Assembly (NCBI GenBank): GCA_001873635.1
Contig: MNZK01000051.1
Location: 1 to 36,269, forward strand
Length of the DNA stretch: 36,269 nucleotides
Source of the DNA: Porphyromonadaceae bacterium CG2_30_38_12
GTDB lineage: Bacteria > Bacteroidota > Bacteroidia > Bacteroidales > Paludibacteraceae
Direction of reading: 5' to 3'
In this document: one piece after another, positions 2,481 through 26,642 of the stretch
How positions within the stretch are numbered: position 1 is the stretch's first letter
Layout of the letters: each line of letters opens with the position of its first letter
Position numbers and translations under genes: made by a program
Notes under the pieces: generated by a model
Seen by the model: the letters and a program-made list of their open reading frames with translations, nothing else
Told to the model about the DNA's origin: nothing
The model's database searches: none

Positions 2481-5400
2481 TTAAATGCCTACCCGCAGCG
2501 TTAATGTAAATTGCTTGGGCATGGGAGTTGCCACCCCTCCGGTATTCATAAACTCAGGGTCTTGCCCGTTTAATTTTTTATCGGAGTAAAGTAAAAATAA
2601 ATTGGTAGCTTGAATTTTTAGTTGCAAATCGCTTAACTTTAAGTTTTCGATAAGCGATTTTGGAAAATCATAAGCCAACGAAACCTCTTTCAGACGAGCA
2701 AATCCCCCATCGGCAATGCGTGAAGTGGAATAATTGTAGGCATTGTAGGCGTAGGCTATTTGTGTGTCGTTGTAGAACTGACGAGCACTTGCTATTGTTG
2801 GGATGTTTGTTTTCAGCTCATCGCCAGGCAATACCCATCTGTTTTTGAATTCTTTAGGCAATGACGTTAAGTCGGTGTAAACTGCACTAAATACGGGGTC
2901 GAGACGTACTTTGTTTCCAAACGAATAGGTTATAAATGCATTCAATCTGAAATTTTTATATTTGAATAAATTTCCAAAACCACCCGTGATGGTGGGATCG
3001 GTAGGACCTTCATATTTCAAAAAATCCAATTTATTAAACTCCTGAAAATTAATATTGGTAACTGTTTCTTCGCCATTTTGATTGGTGAATTTTGGTAAAC
3101 CCTCATCGTTTAAGCCTAAAAAAGGGATAGAAAATAAAGCTCTTACTGGGTAACCTTCGAGCGCATAGCCCGAGCCTGTAACAAGCTGAACCACATTGCT
3201 TCGCGATTTTAAGCTTGTTATTTTATTGTCAATCCAAGCAAATGTAAGGTCTGTTGTCCAGTTAAAATTTTTGGTACTGATGTTTTTTGTCGAAAGCGTA
3301 AATTCTGCCCCTTGCGATTTCATGGAGGCTACGTTGGCATATTTCCCAATCACACCACCTACACCTTGCGTATAAATTCGCCCTATCAAATCGTAATTAT
3401 TACGCGTATAGTAGTCAATGGCAACGTTTACCTTGTTTTCCACAAAACCTATGTCTGCACCTATATTCAGTTCATGTTTTTTTTCGTAAGTTAGCTCACT
3501 GTTTTCAATATCTTCGAGCATGGTTGCATTTTCACTTACTGTCGATAGTGGTCGCCAGGGCGAATAAGAACGAAATATCGGCTGCGCATTTGTAACATAC
3601 GAAGGTCCTCTATCTGCCGTAAGGCTATACGAAGTTTTCAATGTGAAATGGGATAAGGCAGGTTTCAATGCGCTGAAAAAACTTTCTTCGTGCATGTTCC
3701 AGGCTAAAGCCACATTCCAAGTAGGGAGCCATCTCGATTGGGTCGATTTCCCCAACTTATTTGTCCCTTCGTAGCGCCCTGTGAGGTTCAGTATGTATTT
3801 CCCGTCGTACGAAAATGTGGAAGACGCAAAGGCAGCAAGGCTTCGGGTATATGTCCAGGCATTGCCGTAATAAGTGCCATTTTCTTCTTTTTGTTGTTTG
3901 AATAAATGGTAATCAACAAAAGGTACACCGCCGTCATTGTACAGATATCCCCAACCTTGAAAAAACACCGAGTTGCGATCGGTCAAATTAGATTCGACAC
4001 CTGCAAACAAATTTAATAGATGCTGTTCATTTGTGCCAAATGCTTTATTGAATGTTGTTGTTCCTCTAAAGTCGAGCTGCATAATGCTGTAATCGTCGCG
4101 CAAATATATACCTCCTTCGGGCAAAACTGTTTCGGGTAAAGCATTTTCATTGTCGGGGTCGGTGTAAAGGTATGGGTTGGAACTACGAATGGTCTCGTCC
4201 TCTGGTTCGATACCTGCGCGATAAGCCATAGCTTGATTTGAATTGTCCTTAATGAAATGTTCTTTGGCAGTGCCTTGATAACGGATTGATGCTAAGCCAT
4301 TAAATTCAAGCCCTTTCAATGCTTTCCAATTCAATTCCCCTTGAAACTTTACATCTGAAATTTTCAAATCGATATAATTGTTGTTTAGCTCATTGAAAAT
4401 ATTAAACGATGCATAATTTCTTTTGTAATACGTGTTGGGGTCGAGTGTGCGCGAAGTGTTTAAGGCAAAACTGTATGGGTTTATGTCGAAATTTCGTTTC
4501 ACTTCACCTCGTACCACGTCTGTTTCCTGCCCCAGCGTGCCAGGTGCTGATTGCGAACGGTGCGAGGCGTTGGTTAGAAAGTTTAAACTCAATTTCTTTG
4601 ATAAATTGAAGGCAGCGTTTACGTTGGCAGTGTAGCGCTCCACATCGCTTACGAGCGTCCAGCCCGGATCGTTCATGGCTGATACAGAGGCATAAAGTTT
4701 TGCCTTTTCGTTGCCCGAACTGATACTCACCGCATGGTTTTGTACCAAGGAATTTTGAAACAATAAATCGAACCAATTGGTATTTCTAAATTCAGCATCA
4801 CGCAAATAGGCATTCATAGCACTTGTGGTGTGAGCCAAAGCGTAGGTGTCGGTTATGGGGTCGTAGGTGTCCAACAGTTGATACATTTTGCCATACACGC
4901 CCGAATTAGGACTGTTGGCAATGGCTGCTAATTCCAACCATCCTTTCTGTTCCATCTCTTTGTAAATTCCCATTTGCTCCTGCGAGTTAGAGATATTGAA
5001 ATTGTTGTAGCTTGGCTTTAAGCGGTTGGACAATTCCATGCTGTAGTTTATTTTGCTTTGTCCCACTTTGCCTCGTTTGGTGGTGATAACAATAACTCCT
5101 GCCATAGCTCTGGCGCCGTAAATTGATGTGGCAGAACCATCTTTAAGTATTTGAAAATTCTCAATGTCATCGGCATTTAACCCAGCAATAGCCGACGAAA
5201 TGAGCGTTACAGCATCTCCCGACGAAAGTTGGTCGGACGAAACATCAACGGCATCTTCCATCACGACACCATCTACCACCCACAAGGGCTTGGAATTTCC
5301 ATAAATAGAAGTGGCACCACGCACACGAATTTTGGGTGCAGTGCCGAAAGTGCCCGATACATTTTGCACAGAAACACCTGCTGCCTTGCCTTCCAAGGCA

Positions 5401-21832: not shown

Positions 21833-21848
21833 TTTTTTATAATATGTG

Positions 21849-21921
21849 CACGGGCAGAGAGGCTCGAACTCCCGACACCTGGTTTTGGAGACCAGTGCTC
21901 TACCAACTGAGCTACGCCCGT
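21849..21921 (-). tRNA. trnW: tRNA-Trp (anticodon CCA)
   Basis: A 73-nt cloverleaf on the minus strand: acceptor ACGGGCG/TGCCCGT (one G-U), D stem GCTC/GAGC, anticodon stem CTGGT/ACCAG with loop CTCCAAA (anticodon CCA), T loop TTCGAGC, discriminator G. No CCA tail is encoded. It sits between tuf and secE, as in many Bacteroidota. Confidence 0.97.
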
Positions 21922-21939
21922 GTGTGAATTACAATTCTA

Positions 21940-21998
21940 AAATTACGAATTACGGTTTGAGAAGCAATTTCTCATTCGTAATTCGTAATTCGTAATTT
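21940..21998 (-). repeat. Long hairpin with heptamer repeats after tuf
   Basis: Perfect 15-nt inverted arms (21940-21954 and 21984-21998) enclose a second small stem (GAGAA/TTCTC). The right arm is part of three tandem copies of ATTCGTA (21974-21994); the left arm carries two inverted copies. It starts 6 bp beyond the tuf stop and ends 18 bp before tRNA-Trp. It could act as a terminator or as a processing hairpin separating tuf mRNA from the tRNA; no long T run follows, which favours processing. Confidence 0.7.
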
Positions 21999-22003
21999 GA
22001 TTA

Positions 22004-23191
22004 TTAGTCTAACAATTCAGTAATCTGACCAGAACCTACTGTACGTCCACCTTCGCGGATAGCGAAACGTAAACCTACGTTACAAGCTACTGGATAAATC
22101 AACGTTACTGTTAATTCCAAGTTATCGCCTGGCATAACCATTTCTGTTCCTTCTGGCAAGGTGATTTCACCAGTTACATCCAACGTACGAATATAGAATT
22201 GTGGACGGTAACGGTTGTGGAATGGTGTGTGACGACCACCTTCTTCTTTTTTCAAAATATAAGCAGCAGCTTTGAAAGTAGTGTGAGGAGTTACTTTTCC
22301 GGGGTGTGTTATAACCATACCACGTTTAATTTCCTCTTTGTCGATACCACGTAACAACAAACCTACATTATCGCCAGCCTGACCTTCGTCCAAAATTTTG
22401 CGGAACATTTCAACACCAGTTACAACTGATTTCTTTGCACCTTGACCAAGACCAATGATTTGAACTTCTTCACCTGTTTTGATAACACCAGTTTCGATAC
22501 GTCCAGTTGCAACAGTACCACGACCAGTAATCGAGAATACATCTTCAACAGGCATCAAGAATGGTTTGTCAATAGCACGTGGAGGTAATTCAATCCAAGT
22601 ATCAACAGCATCCATCAATTCCATTACTTTATCTTCCCATTCTGGCACACCATTCAATGCTCCCAAAGCAGAACCTTGGATAACAGGAGTGTTGTCGCCA
22701 TCGAAATCATAGAATGAAAGCAATTCGCGCATTTCCATTTCTACTAATTCCAACATTTCAGGGTCATCAACCATATCACATTTGTTCATGAAAATAACCA
22801 AACGAGGTACGTTTACCTGACGAGCCAACAGGATGTGTTCGCGTGTTTGAGGCATAGGACCGTCTGTGGCAGCTACTACAATTATTGCACCGTCCATTTG
22901 AGCAGCACCAGTAACCATGTTTTTCACGTAATCGGCGTGTCCCGGGCAATCTACGTGTGCATAGTGACGCAATGCTGTTTGATATTCAACGTGCGCAGTA
23001 TTAATTGTTATACCACGTTCTTTTTCTTCAGGTGCATTGTCGATTGAATCGAATGAACGCAATTCAGAAAGTCCTTTTTTTGCTAAAACCGTAGTGATAG
23101 CGGCAGTTAATGTCGTTTTACCATGGTCAACGTGTCCAATGGTACCTACGTTTACGTGAGGTTTCGACCTGTCAAATTTTTCTTTTGCCAT
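22004..23191 (-). CDS. tuf: Translation elongation factor Tu
   Basis: A 395-residue EF-Tu with GHVDHGKT (P-loop, residues 19-26), the switch [18 protein letters not shown] (G3), NKCD (G4) and domains 2 and 3 complete, including [12 protein letters not shown]. It brings aminoacyl-tRNA to the ribosome using GTP. Its place directly downstream of four tRNA genes and upstream of tRNA-Trp-secE-nusG matches the tufB-type locus of other bacteria; transcription most likely comes from the tRNA promoter near 23940. Confidence 0.99.
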
Positions 23192-23246
23192 AACTCAAAG
23201 ATTATTTAAAAATTAATTATATGTTTTATAAAAGCTTACAAATTAG

Positions 23247-23318
<72 letters not shown>

Positions 23319-23381
23319 AAAAAAAAAGAAAGAGTAGAATTTTTTAAATTCTCTAATTTATAGTATCTACTCTTCCGATTG

Positions 23382-23454
23382 AGCGAAAGACGGGGCTCAA
23401 ACCCGCGACCCTCAGCTTGGAAGGCTAATGCTCTATCAACTGAGCTACTTTCGC
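23382..23454 (-). tRNA. trnG: tRNA-Gly (anticodon TCC)
   Basis: A 73-nt cloverleaf: acceptor GCGAAAG/CTTTCGC, D stem GCTC/GAGC, anticodon stem TTAGC/GCTGA with loop CTTCCAA (anticodon TCC), T loop TTTGAGC, discriminator T. It is the third tRNA of the tuf cluster. Confidence 0.96.
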
Positions 23455-23461
23455 AATATTT

Positions 23462-23551
23462 CAATGTGCCAATTCTTTCATGTGCCAATATGCCAATTTA
23501 TGATATTGGCGGAATTAATATTGGCACATTGGCATATTAATTCATTGGCAA
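23462..23551. repeat. Inverted array of GCCAAT/ATTGGC words in a tRNA spacer
   Basis: The spacer between tRNA-Tyr and tRNA-Gly holds nested perfect inverted repeats: ATGTGCCAATAT (23480-23491) against ATATTGGCACAT (23518-23529), with GCCAAT (23492-23497) against ATTGGC (23505-23510) inside. Extra copies of GCCAAT to the left and ATTGGC to the right extend the array. It would fold into a long hairpin in the tRNA precursor. No coding potential is seen. Confidence 0.75.
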
Positions 23552-23560
23552 ATTAATTTG

Positions 23561-23643
23561 TGGGCAGTGAAGGATTCGAACCTCCGAAGTCGAAAGACAG
23601 CTGAGTTACAGTCAGCCCCAGTTGGCCACTTTGGTAACTGCCC
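23561..23643 (-). tRNA. trnY: tRNA-Tyr (anticodon GTA)
   Basis: An 83-nt class II cloverleaf: acceptor GGGCAGT/ACTGCCC, anticodon stem GCTGA/TCAGC with loop CTGTAAC (anticodon GTA), a long variable arm and T loop TTCGAAT, discriminator A. The long arm fits tRNA-Tyr. Confidence 0.97.
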
Positions 23644-23676
23644 AAAAAATCAACTCCCAACCTCTAAAGGGGAGTT
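23644..23676 (-). terminator. Terminator-like hairpin directly before tRNA-Tyr
   Basis: On the minus strand AACTCCC and GGGAGTT (7 bp, 11-nt loop) are followed by GATTTTTT, ending at the first base of tRNA-Tyr. It looks like an intrinsic terminator for tRNA-Thr(TGT), but there is no space for a new promoter before tRNA-Tyr, so partial termination or a processing role is more likely. The remaining spacer to 23797 shows nothing else recognisable. Confidence 0.5.
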
Positions 23677-23797
23677 TGATTCCGATTAATTTTTTTTTAA
23701 AATTTAAAAATAGCATTTGAAATATACGCTTATACTTAAATTTACCTGATTTTTCATTCCTCTTTAGGTGGTCAGGGTGCTAATTTTTACGCTTTTG

Positions 23798-23871
23798 AGC
23801 CTCTTGTCGGATTCGAACCAACGACCCCGAGATTACAAATCACGTGCTCTGGCCAACTGAGCTAAAGAGGC
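23798..23871 (-). tRNA. trnT: tRNA-Thr (anticodon TGT)
   Basis: A 74-nt cloverleaf: acceptor GCCTCTT/AAGAGGC, D stem GCTC/GAGC, anticodon loop TTTGTAA (anticodon TGT), T stem GTTGG/CCGAC with loop TTCGAAT, discriminator T. The anticodon stem CGTGA/TCTCG contains a T-T mismatch at the third pair. It is the first gene of the tRNA-tuf unit. Confidence 0.95.
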
Positions 23872-24301: not shown

Positions 24302-25183
24302 TTATTTTGCCCTTGGATGGGCATGTTTATATATATTGTATAACTGTTCAAAACTCGTATGTGTATATACTTGTGTCGATGCTAAGCTACTATGGCCTAA
24401 TAATTCCTTTACGGAATTAATATCGGCTCCTTCGTTGAGTAATGTTGTTGCAAAAGAATGCCTAAGTACGTGCGGACTTTTTTTGTGAATCGTACTTATG
24501 CCAGACATGGTATTGTGTACTAAATTATATATATACTTAGGATACAATTGCTTTCCATTGTTCAAAACAAATAAATAAGCATTGTCCGATTGAATTGTTG
24601 TATCTCTTTGATTCATATAATTCCGCAGCTCTATACAAAAATCCATGCTCAATGGAATAATACGTTGTTTGTTGCGCTTGCCTAATACTTTAATACTCAA
24701 TGCTGAGAAATCAACATCTTTATCTTTTATGTTTATTAACTCGGATAAACGAACTCCCGTTAAATAAAATAATTTTAGAATTATATGATTCCGAATGGAT
24801 TCAAAATCTGGCGTTAAAAAAGTTTCATCAAGTGCTTTTTCCATTTCGCTGTTTTTGAAAAACGCTGGAAGTGGTTTTTTTGTTTTAGGTAAGGTTATTT
24901 TTAACGTTGGATTCTGTTGTGTGTATTTTCGGACTAATAGAAAACGCCAAAAGGAACGTAAAGTAGAAATCTTTCGGGCAATAGTACGAGCAGTATCGTT
25001 GGCTTCCATAAGATTTAATATCCATTGCTGAATATGGGTGGAAGTAATTGTCTCAAAATGAAATTTTTCAAAGGTATTGTTGGTGAATAAAGCAAATTGA
25101 TTCAGGTCGTTATGATAGGACAGTACGGTGTGGGCTGAATAGTTTTTCTCGTACTGTAAGTATTGTATAAATTCATTTATCAT
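24302..25183 (-). CDS. xerC: Tyrosine recombinase XerC/XerD family
   Basis: A 293-residue protein with an N-terminal SAM-like core-binding domain (residues 1-90) and a catalytic domain carrying all expected residues: Arg145 (LTGVRLSELI), Lys169 (VLGKRNKQR), His238 and Arg241 (SPHVLRHSFATTLL), His264 (LLGHSSLAST) and the nucleophile Tyr273 (QVYTHTS). Xer recombinases resolve chromosome dimers at dif. The steady neighbourhood with hpf, tRNAs and tuf suggests a housekeeping Xer protein and not a phage or conjugative-element integrase, although XerC and XerD cannot be told apart from this alone. No dif-like site was recognised in the window. Confidence 0.9.
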   Translation of the reverse strand: MINEFIQYLQYEKNYSAHTVLSYHNDLNQFALFTNNTFEKFHFETITSTHIQQWILNLMEANDTARTIARKISTLRSFWRFLLVRKYTQQNPTLKITLPKTKKPLPAFFKNSEMEKALDETFLTPDFESIRNHIILKLFYLTGVRLSELINIKDKDVDFSALSIKVLGKRNKQRIIPLSMDFCIELRNYMNQRDTTIQSDNAYLFVLNNGKQLYPKYIYNLVHNTMSGISTIHKKSPHVLRHSFATTLLNEGADINSVKELLGHSSLASTQVYTHTSFEQLYNIYKHAHPRAK

Positions 25184-25391
25184 AATTCTGAGGCAGTTCC
25201 GATTCTTAATTGTGCAACGAAAATAGCGGAAATTTAGTGAAGTTGTAACTGAACAGTGCTTTTTTTTATTGAAAATTAATGTTTTTTGCTTTGATTGCTT
25301 TAGCTGTTTTCTACTTTCATTTGCTTTTTGAATTTATAGTGCGCAACTACTCAGCCTGATTTATATTGAAATTTTATTACAAATGAATTGT

Positions 25392-25422
25392 TTTGTTATC
25401 ACTAAAAAATAAGTTATCTTTG
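25392..25422 (+). promoter_or_regulatory. Strong promoter of the zinc-ribbon/CrtW-like operon
   Basis: TTTG (25392-25395), exactly 19 bp, then TATCTTTG (25415-25422): a near-ideal Bacteroidota -33/-7 promoter. The predicted start near 25426 leaves a leader of about 36 nt to the ATG at 25462. The remainder of 25184-25391 is AT-rich with no other signal seen. Confidence 0.8.
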
Positions 25423-25461
25423 CAAACTGTATTTTTTTAATTTATTGTAAGTGTTGTAGAT

Positions 25462-25917
25462 ATGTTATTTAAAGAAGATATTTCTCCCGAATTTGCTCAA
25501 GAACTATTTCAGGACGCTAATAAAGTGATGCAATTTGTTGCTGATATTAAATGGGCTGCTGGGTTTGTATGTCGCAACTGTGGTCACACAAATTATTGCG
25601 AGGGCAAAACGATGGCTTCGAGACGTTGCACGCGCTGCAAAAAAGAAGAATCGGCTGCTGCTAATACTATTTTTCACAACATAAAATTTCCAATAAACAA
25701 AGCTTTTTATATTGCCCACAGTGTTTGTGTTGAAGGGAAAGATTTTTCTTCGTATAATTATTCCGATCAGTTAGGGCTGAACCAAATGACATGTTGGAAA
25801 TTTAGAAAACGCATACAGGATTGTATGATGAAAATAGGCAGCAATCATTCGTTAAATTCTAAACAAAATGAAAGGCAACCAATTAAGATTGAAACAATCA
25901 TGATGTCACTTAAATAG
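25462..25917 (+). CDS. IS1595-like transposase zinc-ribbon/helix protein without the nuclease domain
   Basis: A 151-residue protein. Cys37, Cys40, Cys56 and Cys59 form a zinc ribbon (VCRNCGHTNYCEG, then RRCTRCKKE), followed by ANTIFHNIKFPINKAFYIA and a helical GLNQMTCWKFRKRIQDCM. This order matches the N-terminal part of IS1595/ISXO2-type transposases: zinc ribbon, then the helix-turn-helix that binds DNA. The DDE/DDN catalytic domain that should follow is absent, and the gene ends in its own stop with no decayed remainder, no terminal inverted repeats and a clean promoter. The next gene starts 8 bp later. I infer a domesticated DNA-binding protein, perhaps a regulator of its own operon; the function is untested. 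A 3'-truncated insertion-sequence relic is the main alternative. Confidence 0.75.
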   Translation: MLFKEDISPEFAQELFQDANKVMQFVADIKWAAGFVCRNCGHTNYCEGKTMASRRCTRCKKEESAAANTIFHNIKFPINKAFYIAHSVCVEGKDFSSYNYSDQLGLNQMTCWKFRKRIQDCMMKIGSNHSLNSKQNERQPIKIETIMMSLK

Positions 25918-25925
25918 GAACAATT

Positions 25926-26597
25926 ATGGGCTTAATCATTGCATTTCTCATTGTCATTTTATGGTTTCTAAATTTGCTTTATGCGCTTTTTTACCAAACG
26001 CTTGCCTTTGACAATGGTTGGGTTTATGTGCAAATTTTGTTGCAAACTTGGCTTTTTACAGGCTTGTTTATCACCGCTCACGATGCGATGCATGGTACTG
26101 TTAGTAAACGTAAATCGCTAAATTTTGTGGTAGGATTTGTAGCCACTTTTTTATTTGCTGCCATGAATTACCGCATGCTATTGGCAAAACATAAATATCA
26201 CCACGATTATGTAGGCACAGCCTCTGACCCCGACTATAAAACAGGAAATCAAAACTTCTTTTTGTGGTGGTTTTCATTTCTTAAACAGTATGTTACTATT
26301 CTTCAAGTAGTTATTATGGCTGTTTTATTTAATGTCCTCCTGTTGCGATTTGATCAGTTTCGGTTGCTCGCTTTTTGGATTTTGCCATCTGTGTTGGCTA
26401 CTTTTCAGTTGTTCTATTTTGGAACATACACCACACACAAACTTCCTCACACGCCTTCTATGGAGCCATATAAATCACGTACTTTGAAACGGAATCATTT
26501 TGTGGCTCTCATTACCTGCTACTTTTTTGGCTACCACTACGAACATCATCAGTTTCCCGGCACGCCATGGTGGAAGTTGTACCAACTAAAAAAATAA
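25926..26597 (+). CDS. CrtW-like beta-carotene ketolase/fatty acid desaturase superfamily membrane protein
   Basis: A 223-residue integral membrane protein with three or four hydrophobic spans. The histidine boxes of the di-iron desaturase/hydroxylase superfamily are intact: HDAMH (52-56), HKYHH (89-93) and HYEHH (204-208). Surrounding words such as LFITAHDAMHGT, VGTASDPDY, FGTYTTHKLPH and FGYHYEHHQFPGTPWWKL are those of CrtW-type carotenoid 4-ketolases. No carotenoid synthesis genes (crtE, crtB, crtI, crtY) are in the window, so the substrate may be a carotenoid made elsewhere or another lipid. It starts 8 bp after the zinc-ribbon gene and is almost certainly co-transcribed with it. It is a little shorter than most CrtW proteins (about 240-260 residues). 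Confidence 0.82.
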   Translation: MGLIIAFLIVILWFLNLLYALFYQTLAFDNGWVYVQILLQTWLFTGLFITAHDAMHGTVSKRKSLNFVVGFVATFLFAAMNYRMLLAKHKYHHDYVGTASDPDYKTGNQNFFLWWFSFLKQYVTILQVVIMAVLFNVLLLRFDQFRLLAFWILPSVLATFQLFYFGTYTTHKLPHTPSMEPYKSRTLKRNHFVALITCYFFGYHYEHHQFPGTPWWKLYQLKK

Positions 26598-26634: not shown

Positions 26635-26642
26635 TACCTTTG
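26635..26642 (+). promoter_or_regulatory. -7 element (TACCTTTG) of the DUF4290-murA unit
   Basis: An exact TAnnTTTG match 27 bp before the ATG at 26670. A -33 element is not clear. It overlaps the first codons of the longer possible reading (ATG at 26631), which is therefore rejected as the start. Confidence 0.5.

Follow-up and report, generated by a model that had tools for sequence, protein, structure and literature searches.

A stand-alone IS1595-type zinc-ribbon/HTH protein as predicted regulator of sulfur/thiol genes in Bacteroidales, here upstream of a CrtW-like gene

What does a transposase head do without its nuclease, and why does it stand in front of a gene for a membrane enzyme? 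The window analysed here, a stretch of 36,269 nucleotides that forms contig C87 of a 2.63 Mb assembly (82.6% complete), holds two neighbouring reading frames on the plus strand that are separated by 8 bp. They encode a 151-residue protein with the zinc ribbon and helix-turn-helix (HTH) of IS1595 transposases and a 223-residue CrtW-like enzyme (Table 1). In a preliminary description, the pair was read as a domesticated transposase head that serves the enzyme. We call the small protein znR and consider it probable (roughly 0.8) that it is a transposase-type head turned autoregulator of a sulfur/thiol-redox regulon, probably a repressor, which now stands before crtW in this genome. The computed support for this reading consists of the protein family, its conservation and selection, the operator motif, the promoter geometry, the genes of the regulon and the co-occurrence of operator and regulator across genomes.

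Table 1. Positions of the window's features (first nine rows) and of related elements elsewhere
Feature	Position	Strand	Remark
Intergenic region, xerC to regulator gene	25184..25461	.	junction not seen in the relatives' xerC loci listed
Single 20-bp operator motif copy GAATTGTTTTGTTATCACTA	25385..25404	+	20.9 bits; second best in window 8.9 bits
-33 element TTTG	25392..25395	+	within operator copy
-7 element TATCTTTG	25415..25422	+	30 bp from operator start, as most often in relatives
znR (name used here), zinc-ribbon/HTH protein, 151 aa, IS1595-type, no DDE	25462..25917	+	predicted regulator
Zinc ribbon, residues 22-61; Cys 37, 40, 56, 59	25525..25644	+	Pfam match, alignment
Helical part with HTH; model helices 78-90, 97-104, 108-129	25693..25848	+	AlphaFold model
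CrtW-like di-iron membrane enzyme, 223 aa	25926..26597	+	second gene of predicted unit
TACCTTTG ahead of DUF4290-murA unit	26635..26642	+	unit counted outside the finding
Single operator sites within reading frames	this genome C70, C27, C34, C93; G003, G009, G031, G033		
Single intergenic operator sites (5 of 13)	this genome C67, C86; G014; G028; G042		G028 beside DUF1847-like gene; G042 beside ArsM-like gene
7TM-DISM proteins with zinc-ribbon/HTH end	L104 2564-4426; L105 2615-4408		Flammeovirga, Persicobacter plasmids

A transposase-type head without nuclease

znR matches the Pfam model Zn_ribbon_IS1595 (PF12760) with an E value of 3e-7 and 30.7 bits (cut-off 25.4). The NCBIfam model transpos_IS1595 aligns at positions 3-60 of its 215 alone (25.7 bits, cut-off 75), and hence znR has no DDE part. 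As the preliminary description had stated, there is no DDE catalytic domain, for which neither Pfam nor NCBIfam gave a match; beyond the HTH, the protein has just a short tail. With E values up to 1, the scans returned, apart from one weak zinc-ribbon match, only models of the IS1595 type, and no homology to the CsoR, ArsR or FisR families. The AlphaFold model has a mean pLDDT of 78.7 and places helices at the expected position of the HTH. A Foldseek search against the PDB gave no match with E <=0.001 (top rank the KorA HTH, E 1.0), and a sequence search of the PDB returned none.

znR is an old gene under purifying selection and not an accident. Among 48 genomes of the genus, 37 have a znR match, and for 34 of the 48 the best match lies in a frame of 142-195 residues and is 67% identical or more. 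The match in genome G045, a fragment, spans 37 residues at the edge of a contig, and G004 and G046 have transposase-like matches only; the tally used here accordingly counts 35 genomes with znR, including the fragment, and 13 without. One relative, G032, carries two copies of the regulator gene (L158 and L137, on contigs C8 and C15). In a sample of the order, 43 of 148 genomes have a match of 1e-30 or better, two of them solely in frames of 641 and 308 residues. In a collection of named genomes, the best 80 of 120 znR loci are all titled Bacteroidota or taxa inside it, many being Paludibacter or Bacteroidales. The 15 pattern matches on viral contigs include no relative; 40 plasmid records match, and the 20 listed are transposases, 7TM proteins and unannotated stretches. 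Identity to the znR of the window is 60-77% in 29 aligned orthologues and at least 70% in 21, and the orthologues share a conserved C-terminal tail. The dN/dS ratio, which the preliminary description had singled out as a check, is 0.02-0.23 in all 21 pairs with dS <1 (of 45 listed; the pairs are non-independent).

Over about 100-115 residues of the head, znR is 34-43% identical to the nearest IS1595 transposases of the genus, with which it shares the four-cysteine zinc ribbon and the HTH. It differs from them in having no DDE domain and no IS ends, in Cys46 and Cys89, in its conserved tail and in an operator unlike the terminal inverted repeat (TIR). Cys46 is present in 80/80 regulators versus 5/10 near transposases and Cys89 in 79/80 versus 2/10, while Cys111 is common to both (80/80 and 7/10); this comparison was made without L318, which gave no match, and without the weak matches L002 and L003 of the own genome. 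The TIR GGTATAGGCGnTTAGACC is found at both ends in five of ten near IS1595 copies and at one end in a sixth. Its pattern has 0 matches in the window at up to three mismatches, and neither of the two inverted-repeat pairs found in 25100-26100 brackets znR as IS ends would, so that the reported lack of transposon ends held up. A near-identical full IS1595 copy, which would mark a recent insertion, was not found in the 82.6% complete assembly. The search for IS1595 DDE domains returned one split remnant of a distant element on another contig (G000:C70:12737-13203).

In a tree of the heads, the 80 regulators are grouped apart from the IS and 7TM heads. As support for this grouping is weak (0.47), the direction from transposase to regulator is plausible in what is an unrooted tree. 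Two 7TM-DISM proteins also end, at the C-terminus, in the same zinc-ribbon/HTH head; they are encoded on plasmids of Flammeovirga and Persicobacter, where it is the apparent output domain and shares 41% and 33% identity with znR. In contrast to znR, which stands alone, these heads are fused to a membrane sensor and the two examined are without Cys46 and Cys89. The fusions provide an independent hint that such a head can act as an output domain, and it may do so generally in Cytophagales.

A predicted tandem operator over divergent promoters

In relatives, tandem 22-bp direct repeats AAATTAnnnTAGTATCACTA lie between the divergent promoters of znR and its upstream neighbour and overlap the -33 elements. 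The dyad AAAT-N10-TCAC occurs in 60 of 79 upstream regions versus 0.4 expected from shuffles (gapped-word count), and a 20-bp matrix finds 154 sites in 75 of 80 upstream regions but 0.55 sites in shuffles. The matrix was trained on the regions in which it is counted; the dyad count, a control with the reversed pattern and a comparison at CoADR genes are more independent tests. Two copies are present in 49 of the 75 site-bearing regions. Since successive copies are spaced 20-24 bp in 72 of 79 pairs and only 2 of the 154 sites lie on the opposite strand, the predicted operator is a tandem direct repeat. An origin of this operator from an IS terminal repeat was also considered and discarded: by eye, the TIR has no clear likeness to it, and motif scans of five IS copies gave two weak overlapping matches (10.1 and 8.1 bits) behind one copy (L308).

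The operator has a near-fixed relation to the promoters, whose elements TTTG and TAnnTTTG we take to be the Bacteroidota consensus. Where TAnnTTTG of the regulator was found (65 loci), the distance between its start and that of the proximal copy is 27-33 bp in 60 cases; on the other side, 61 of 63 loci have the divergent CAAAnnTA 32-36 bp away from the distal copy's end. With these near-fixed -7 distances, each outer operator copy therefore covers a -33 region. CAA, the TTG of the opposite promoter, is contained in 40/59 distal copies versus 6/65 proximal ones, and TTG in 23/65 proximal copies versus 2/59 distal ones, the overlap with the -33 element being less regular on the proximal side. 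Locus L130 with its 51 upstream bases was left out of the dyad test and of the promoter distances. One clade has TCG in place of TTA in the operator, and HTH residues 102, 107 and 113 differ there as well; the switch amounts to one clade split, and alignment columns outside the HTH score equally high.

The promoter of znR in the window (TTTG-N19-TATCTTTG, spacer 19 bp) had been described as near-ideal, and the match at 25392 is the single one of the pattern TTTG-N18-21-TAnnTTTG on the plus strand of the 36-kb window; the minus strand has two. A sigma-70 scan of the region yielded 12 matches against 11.4 expected and thus no excess. One operator copy and not two is present in the window, at the usual distance from the promoter. 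The region 25392-25461, suggested earlier as the binding target of the small protein, was nearly right, the predicted site being 25385-25404 (Table 1).

A predicted sulfur/thiol regulon

The conserved neighbours of znR are sulfur/thiol genes rather than carotenoid genes. The gene upstream of znR is divergent in 70 of the 77 loci that have one, the window with xerC being counted among the 70. It most commonly encodes an ArsM-like methyltransferase (22), a rhodanese (15), a small membrane protein (13) which we take to be DUF6132-like, CoADR (6) or thioredoxin (4); locus L165, which has no usable regulator frame, was left out of these and later counts. The cluster names SGNH hydrolase, Rieske, DUF2892 and OsmC are presumed assignments of ours. 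A radical SAM/SPASM protein encoded between ArsM-like methyltransferase and thioredoxin reductase (L276:4668-5969) is present in 34 of 81 clustered loci and passed no curated NCBIfam cut-off among the matches listed.

The exact operator pattern has 98 matches in 34 of the 48 genus genomes, the reversed pattern 0 in all 48. In the own genome, a site pair precedes a unit of ArsM-like methyltransferase, radical SAM protein and thioredoxin reductase on contig C85 at 3639-3680, another precedes rhodanese, DUF1847, thioredoxin and an SQR-like protein on C96, one exact copy with a weaker one lies before CoADR on C3, and the single exact site on C87 is that before znR. Rhodanese and thioredoxin of this genome score above their cut-offs. 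The ArsM-like methyltransferase (189 bits, cut-off 263), a thioredoxin-thioredoxin reductase fusion (300 bits, cut-off 343) and the CoADR-like protein (426 bits, cut-off 579; three rhodanese stretches) score below theirs and the SQR-like flavoproteins far below; the library scan also places a radical SAM/SPASM protein and DUF1847 among the members. In the extracted stretches, all 19 of 19 site pairs away from znR adjoin a gene of the sulfur/thiol set; the site pairs of G005, G008 and G019 were read in a different set of stretches. Eight of 13 single sites fall inside reading frames and were treated as chance; the single exact sites G023:C13 and G035:C137 are excluded from these counts. Matches with two mismatches number 85 in the own genome against 44 for the reversed control and are mostly noise, which is why only exact or clearly placed sites were used. 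A single good operator of 25.2 bits was seen between the genes for an SQR-like protein of 485 residues and a glycine C-acetyltransferase (L279:2106-5104). In three relatives, a frame that equals the L279 protein in length (485 residues) also lies opposite the ArsM-like gene in divergent orientation.

Operator and regulator tend to occur together. A site pair is found in 24 of 35 genomes with znR versus 1 of 13 without (hand count; Fisher 2e-4, uncorrected for relatedness). An operator precedes CoADR in 18 of 25 genomes with znR versus 0 of 7 without (Fisher 0.001, uncorrected for relatedness); in 12 of the 18 it is a site separate from the regulator's own, and 7 of the 25 have no operator at CoADR. 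This comparison covers 25 of the 29 znR-bearing genomes with a CoADR match, G001, G012, G039 and G045 with partial or distant CoADR being omitted; two of the seven regions from genomes without znR are short (356 bases in G047, 437 in G034), and the genomes without znR carry more distant versions of CoADR. A site pair without a znR match is seen in G046 (76% complete), and G011, G021, G041 and G045 have znR, a fragment in the case of G045, but no exact operator site.

Taken together, the conservation, the dN/dS ratios, the operator and the regulon suggest that the nuclease-less head has been kept by selection as a transcription regulator, in line with that part of the preliminary description. 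In the mechanism that we propose, znR, which shares the zinc ribbon and HTH head of IS1595 transposases without their nuclease domain, regulates transcription, and its protomers would occupy tandem direct repeats, spaced about 22 bp, in a head-to-tail arrangement. With these repeats lying over the -33 elements at both the znR promoter and the divergent promoters, znR would control itself and a sulfur/thiol-redox regulon. The latter is predicted to comprise rhodanese, CoADR-like proteins with rhodanese domains, SQR-like flavoproteins, thioredoxin, thioredoxin-thioredoxin reductase, ArsM-like methyltransferase, radical SAM/SPASM proteins and DUF1847. Most likely, znR would repress at rest and release the repeats once a sulfur or thiol stressor has reacted with its cysteines or its zinc site. 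We infer that znR itself binds the repeats, that it represses, that the signal is sulfur- or thiol-related and that crtW is co-transcribed; the repeats could instead be bound by another protein whose distribution follows that of znR.

The CrtW-like enzyme and the rival readings

The downstream enzyme belongs to the Pfam family FA_desaturase (72.9 bits) and scores 213.9 bits with the NCBIfam model CrtW (NF045690), below the curated cut-off of 350. Its histidines 52, 56, 89, 92, 93, 204, 207 and 208 are invariant in nine aligned homologues, and the three histidine boxes noted earlier are borne out. Only 10 of the 48 genus genomes, one of them with a broken gene, have a crtW match. Of the nine other than ours, five have crtW next to a lycopene cyclase gene and three, including one with a broken copy, have it ahead of DUF4290-murA; in the ninth, G009, it stands alone and adjoins neither. 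The order crtW-DUF4290-murA is common to the window, G045, G017 and (broken crtW) G019, the latter three having a different gene in front. A lycopene cyclase match is present in each of the nine genomes whose crtW is intact, and the own genome has, in addition to its cyclase gene on contig C7, a phytoene-synthase-type gene on C109 (SQS_PSY match; cut by the contig end). A carotenoid ketolase-type role of the enzyme is therefore likely. It shares family, histidine boxes and co-occurrence with lycopene cyclase genes with the beta-carotene ketolase CrtW, and differs from it in the lower score and in lying in a regulator's unit in this genome only. Operator sites of at least 11 bits were not found near the phytoene-synthase-type or the cyclase gene of the own genome in the extracted stretches (L285, L286). 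In G019 (89% complete), crtW is broken (L032/L033, G019:C149) and neither PF00494 nor lycopene cyclase gave a match; the carotenoid branch looks as if it were being lost there.

The pairing of znR and crtW is private to this genome. Within four reading frames of znR, crtW was found in 0 of 79 other loci, some of whose contigs end nearby, and five other genomes that have both genes, one with a broken crtW and one with a znR fragment, carry them on different contigs. The preliminary description had named the absence of homologues beside the enzyme in all relatives as a refutation, and for the pairing this absence is what was found. The left edge of the unit is an uncommon junction: in the xerC loci of 29 relatives (29 of the 39 with a match, among the matches listed), the regulator is adjacent in none, and the ribosomal protein S21 gene, found in 23 of the 29, is missing from the window. 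Six xerC loci are without S21, those of the near relatives G017, G019 and G045 included, G019 with just 350 bases upstream. There is also a small chance of a misassembly at this junction.

Several other readings of the locus have to be weighed. A functionless recent truncated IS1595 insertion upstream of crtW would explain the clear homology to near transposase heads and is extremely improbable, given intact orthologues across much of the order, purifying selection, the lack of IS ends and the retained operator. The 8-bp gap, the one promoter and an enzyme gene without a TTTG-N18-21-TAnnTTTG promoter of its own would suit a conserved two-gene system, in which a transposase-derived targeting factor or dedicated regulator serves the CrtW-like enzyme. 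We regard such a system as very unlikely since crtW lies within four reading frames of znR in none of the 79 other loci (some with contigs that end nearby), crtW occurs in 10 genus genomes and znR in 35, and the two lie on separate contigs in the five genomes with both. The earlier idea of a domesticated head serving the enzyme hence survives in its first half, the regulator, and not in its second, the pair as a system, because the recurrent neighbours are sulfur/thiol genes. More serious is the question of the sign. znR could be an activator of the sulfur/thiol regulon, similar to class II type factors on the -33 region; operator copies that overlap the -33 elements at a near-fixed distance are compatible with it, positions overlapping -33 are used by activators and repressors alike, and the autogenous divergent layout fits both signs. 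Repeats that cover both -33 regions are, however, most simply a steric block, so activation is possible but doubtful, and we favour repression about two to one.

In this genome znR stands away from its usual partners, just upstream of crtW-DUF4290-murA, with one operator copy, and the oxygen-type di-iron, carotenoid-like enzyme falls into its predicted transcription unit, as had been proposed. As znR stands upstream of crtW and one operator copy is kept, crtW is probably under the same control. There is an even chance that this position is neutral, znR acting in trans on the sulfur regulon with crtW merely downstream: the other operators of the regulon in this genome are intact, the pairing was seen once, and the order crtW-DUF4290-murA exists, without znR in front, in G045, G017 and G019 (broken crtW). 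Against this, the 8-bp gap and the absence of another promoter of the usual type for crtW on the plus strand of the window make some read-through control hard to avoid. A bolder version of the autoregulator reading is tentative at best: the zinc ribbon and the extra cysteines might sense reactive sulfur and release the operators, the head might have founded an order-wide sulfur-stress regulon, and the ketolase might be its new recruit. If true, an oxygen-dependent carotenoid ketolase in the regulon would tie membrane pigment chemistry to a sulfide/oxygen switch.

CstR, SqrR/BigR and FisR control sulfide- and persulfide-handling genes, and znR is likened to them by its predicted targets. They are without a zinc-ribbon/HTH head of the znR kind, and znR is without the domains of their families. 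We take these proteins to be of the CsoR, ArsR and sigma-54 types. Among the top matches listed from the open-licence literature, in the portions available, a described regulator of the znR kind was not found. To our knowledge, domesticated transposase heads that act as transcription factors have been described mainly in eukaryotes. A family annotated as transposase by its head appears to have a precise predicted operator, promoters of near-fixed geometry and a regulon found again in relatives, and its function is therefore directly testable. If the reading is true, Bacteroidales gain a sulfur/thiol regulator of a kind that is not among the literature matches listed, and regulators may hide behind some of the short "transposase zinc-ribbon" annotations, which calls for caution. 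As a minor observation on the same contig, five tRNA genes (Trp, Thr, Gly, Tyr, Thr) surround an EF-Tu gene at 21848-23871, all on the minus strand.
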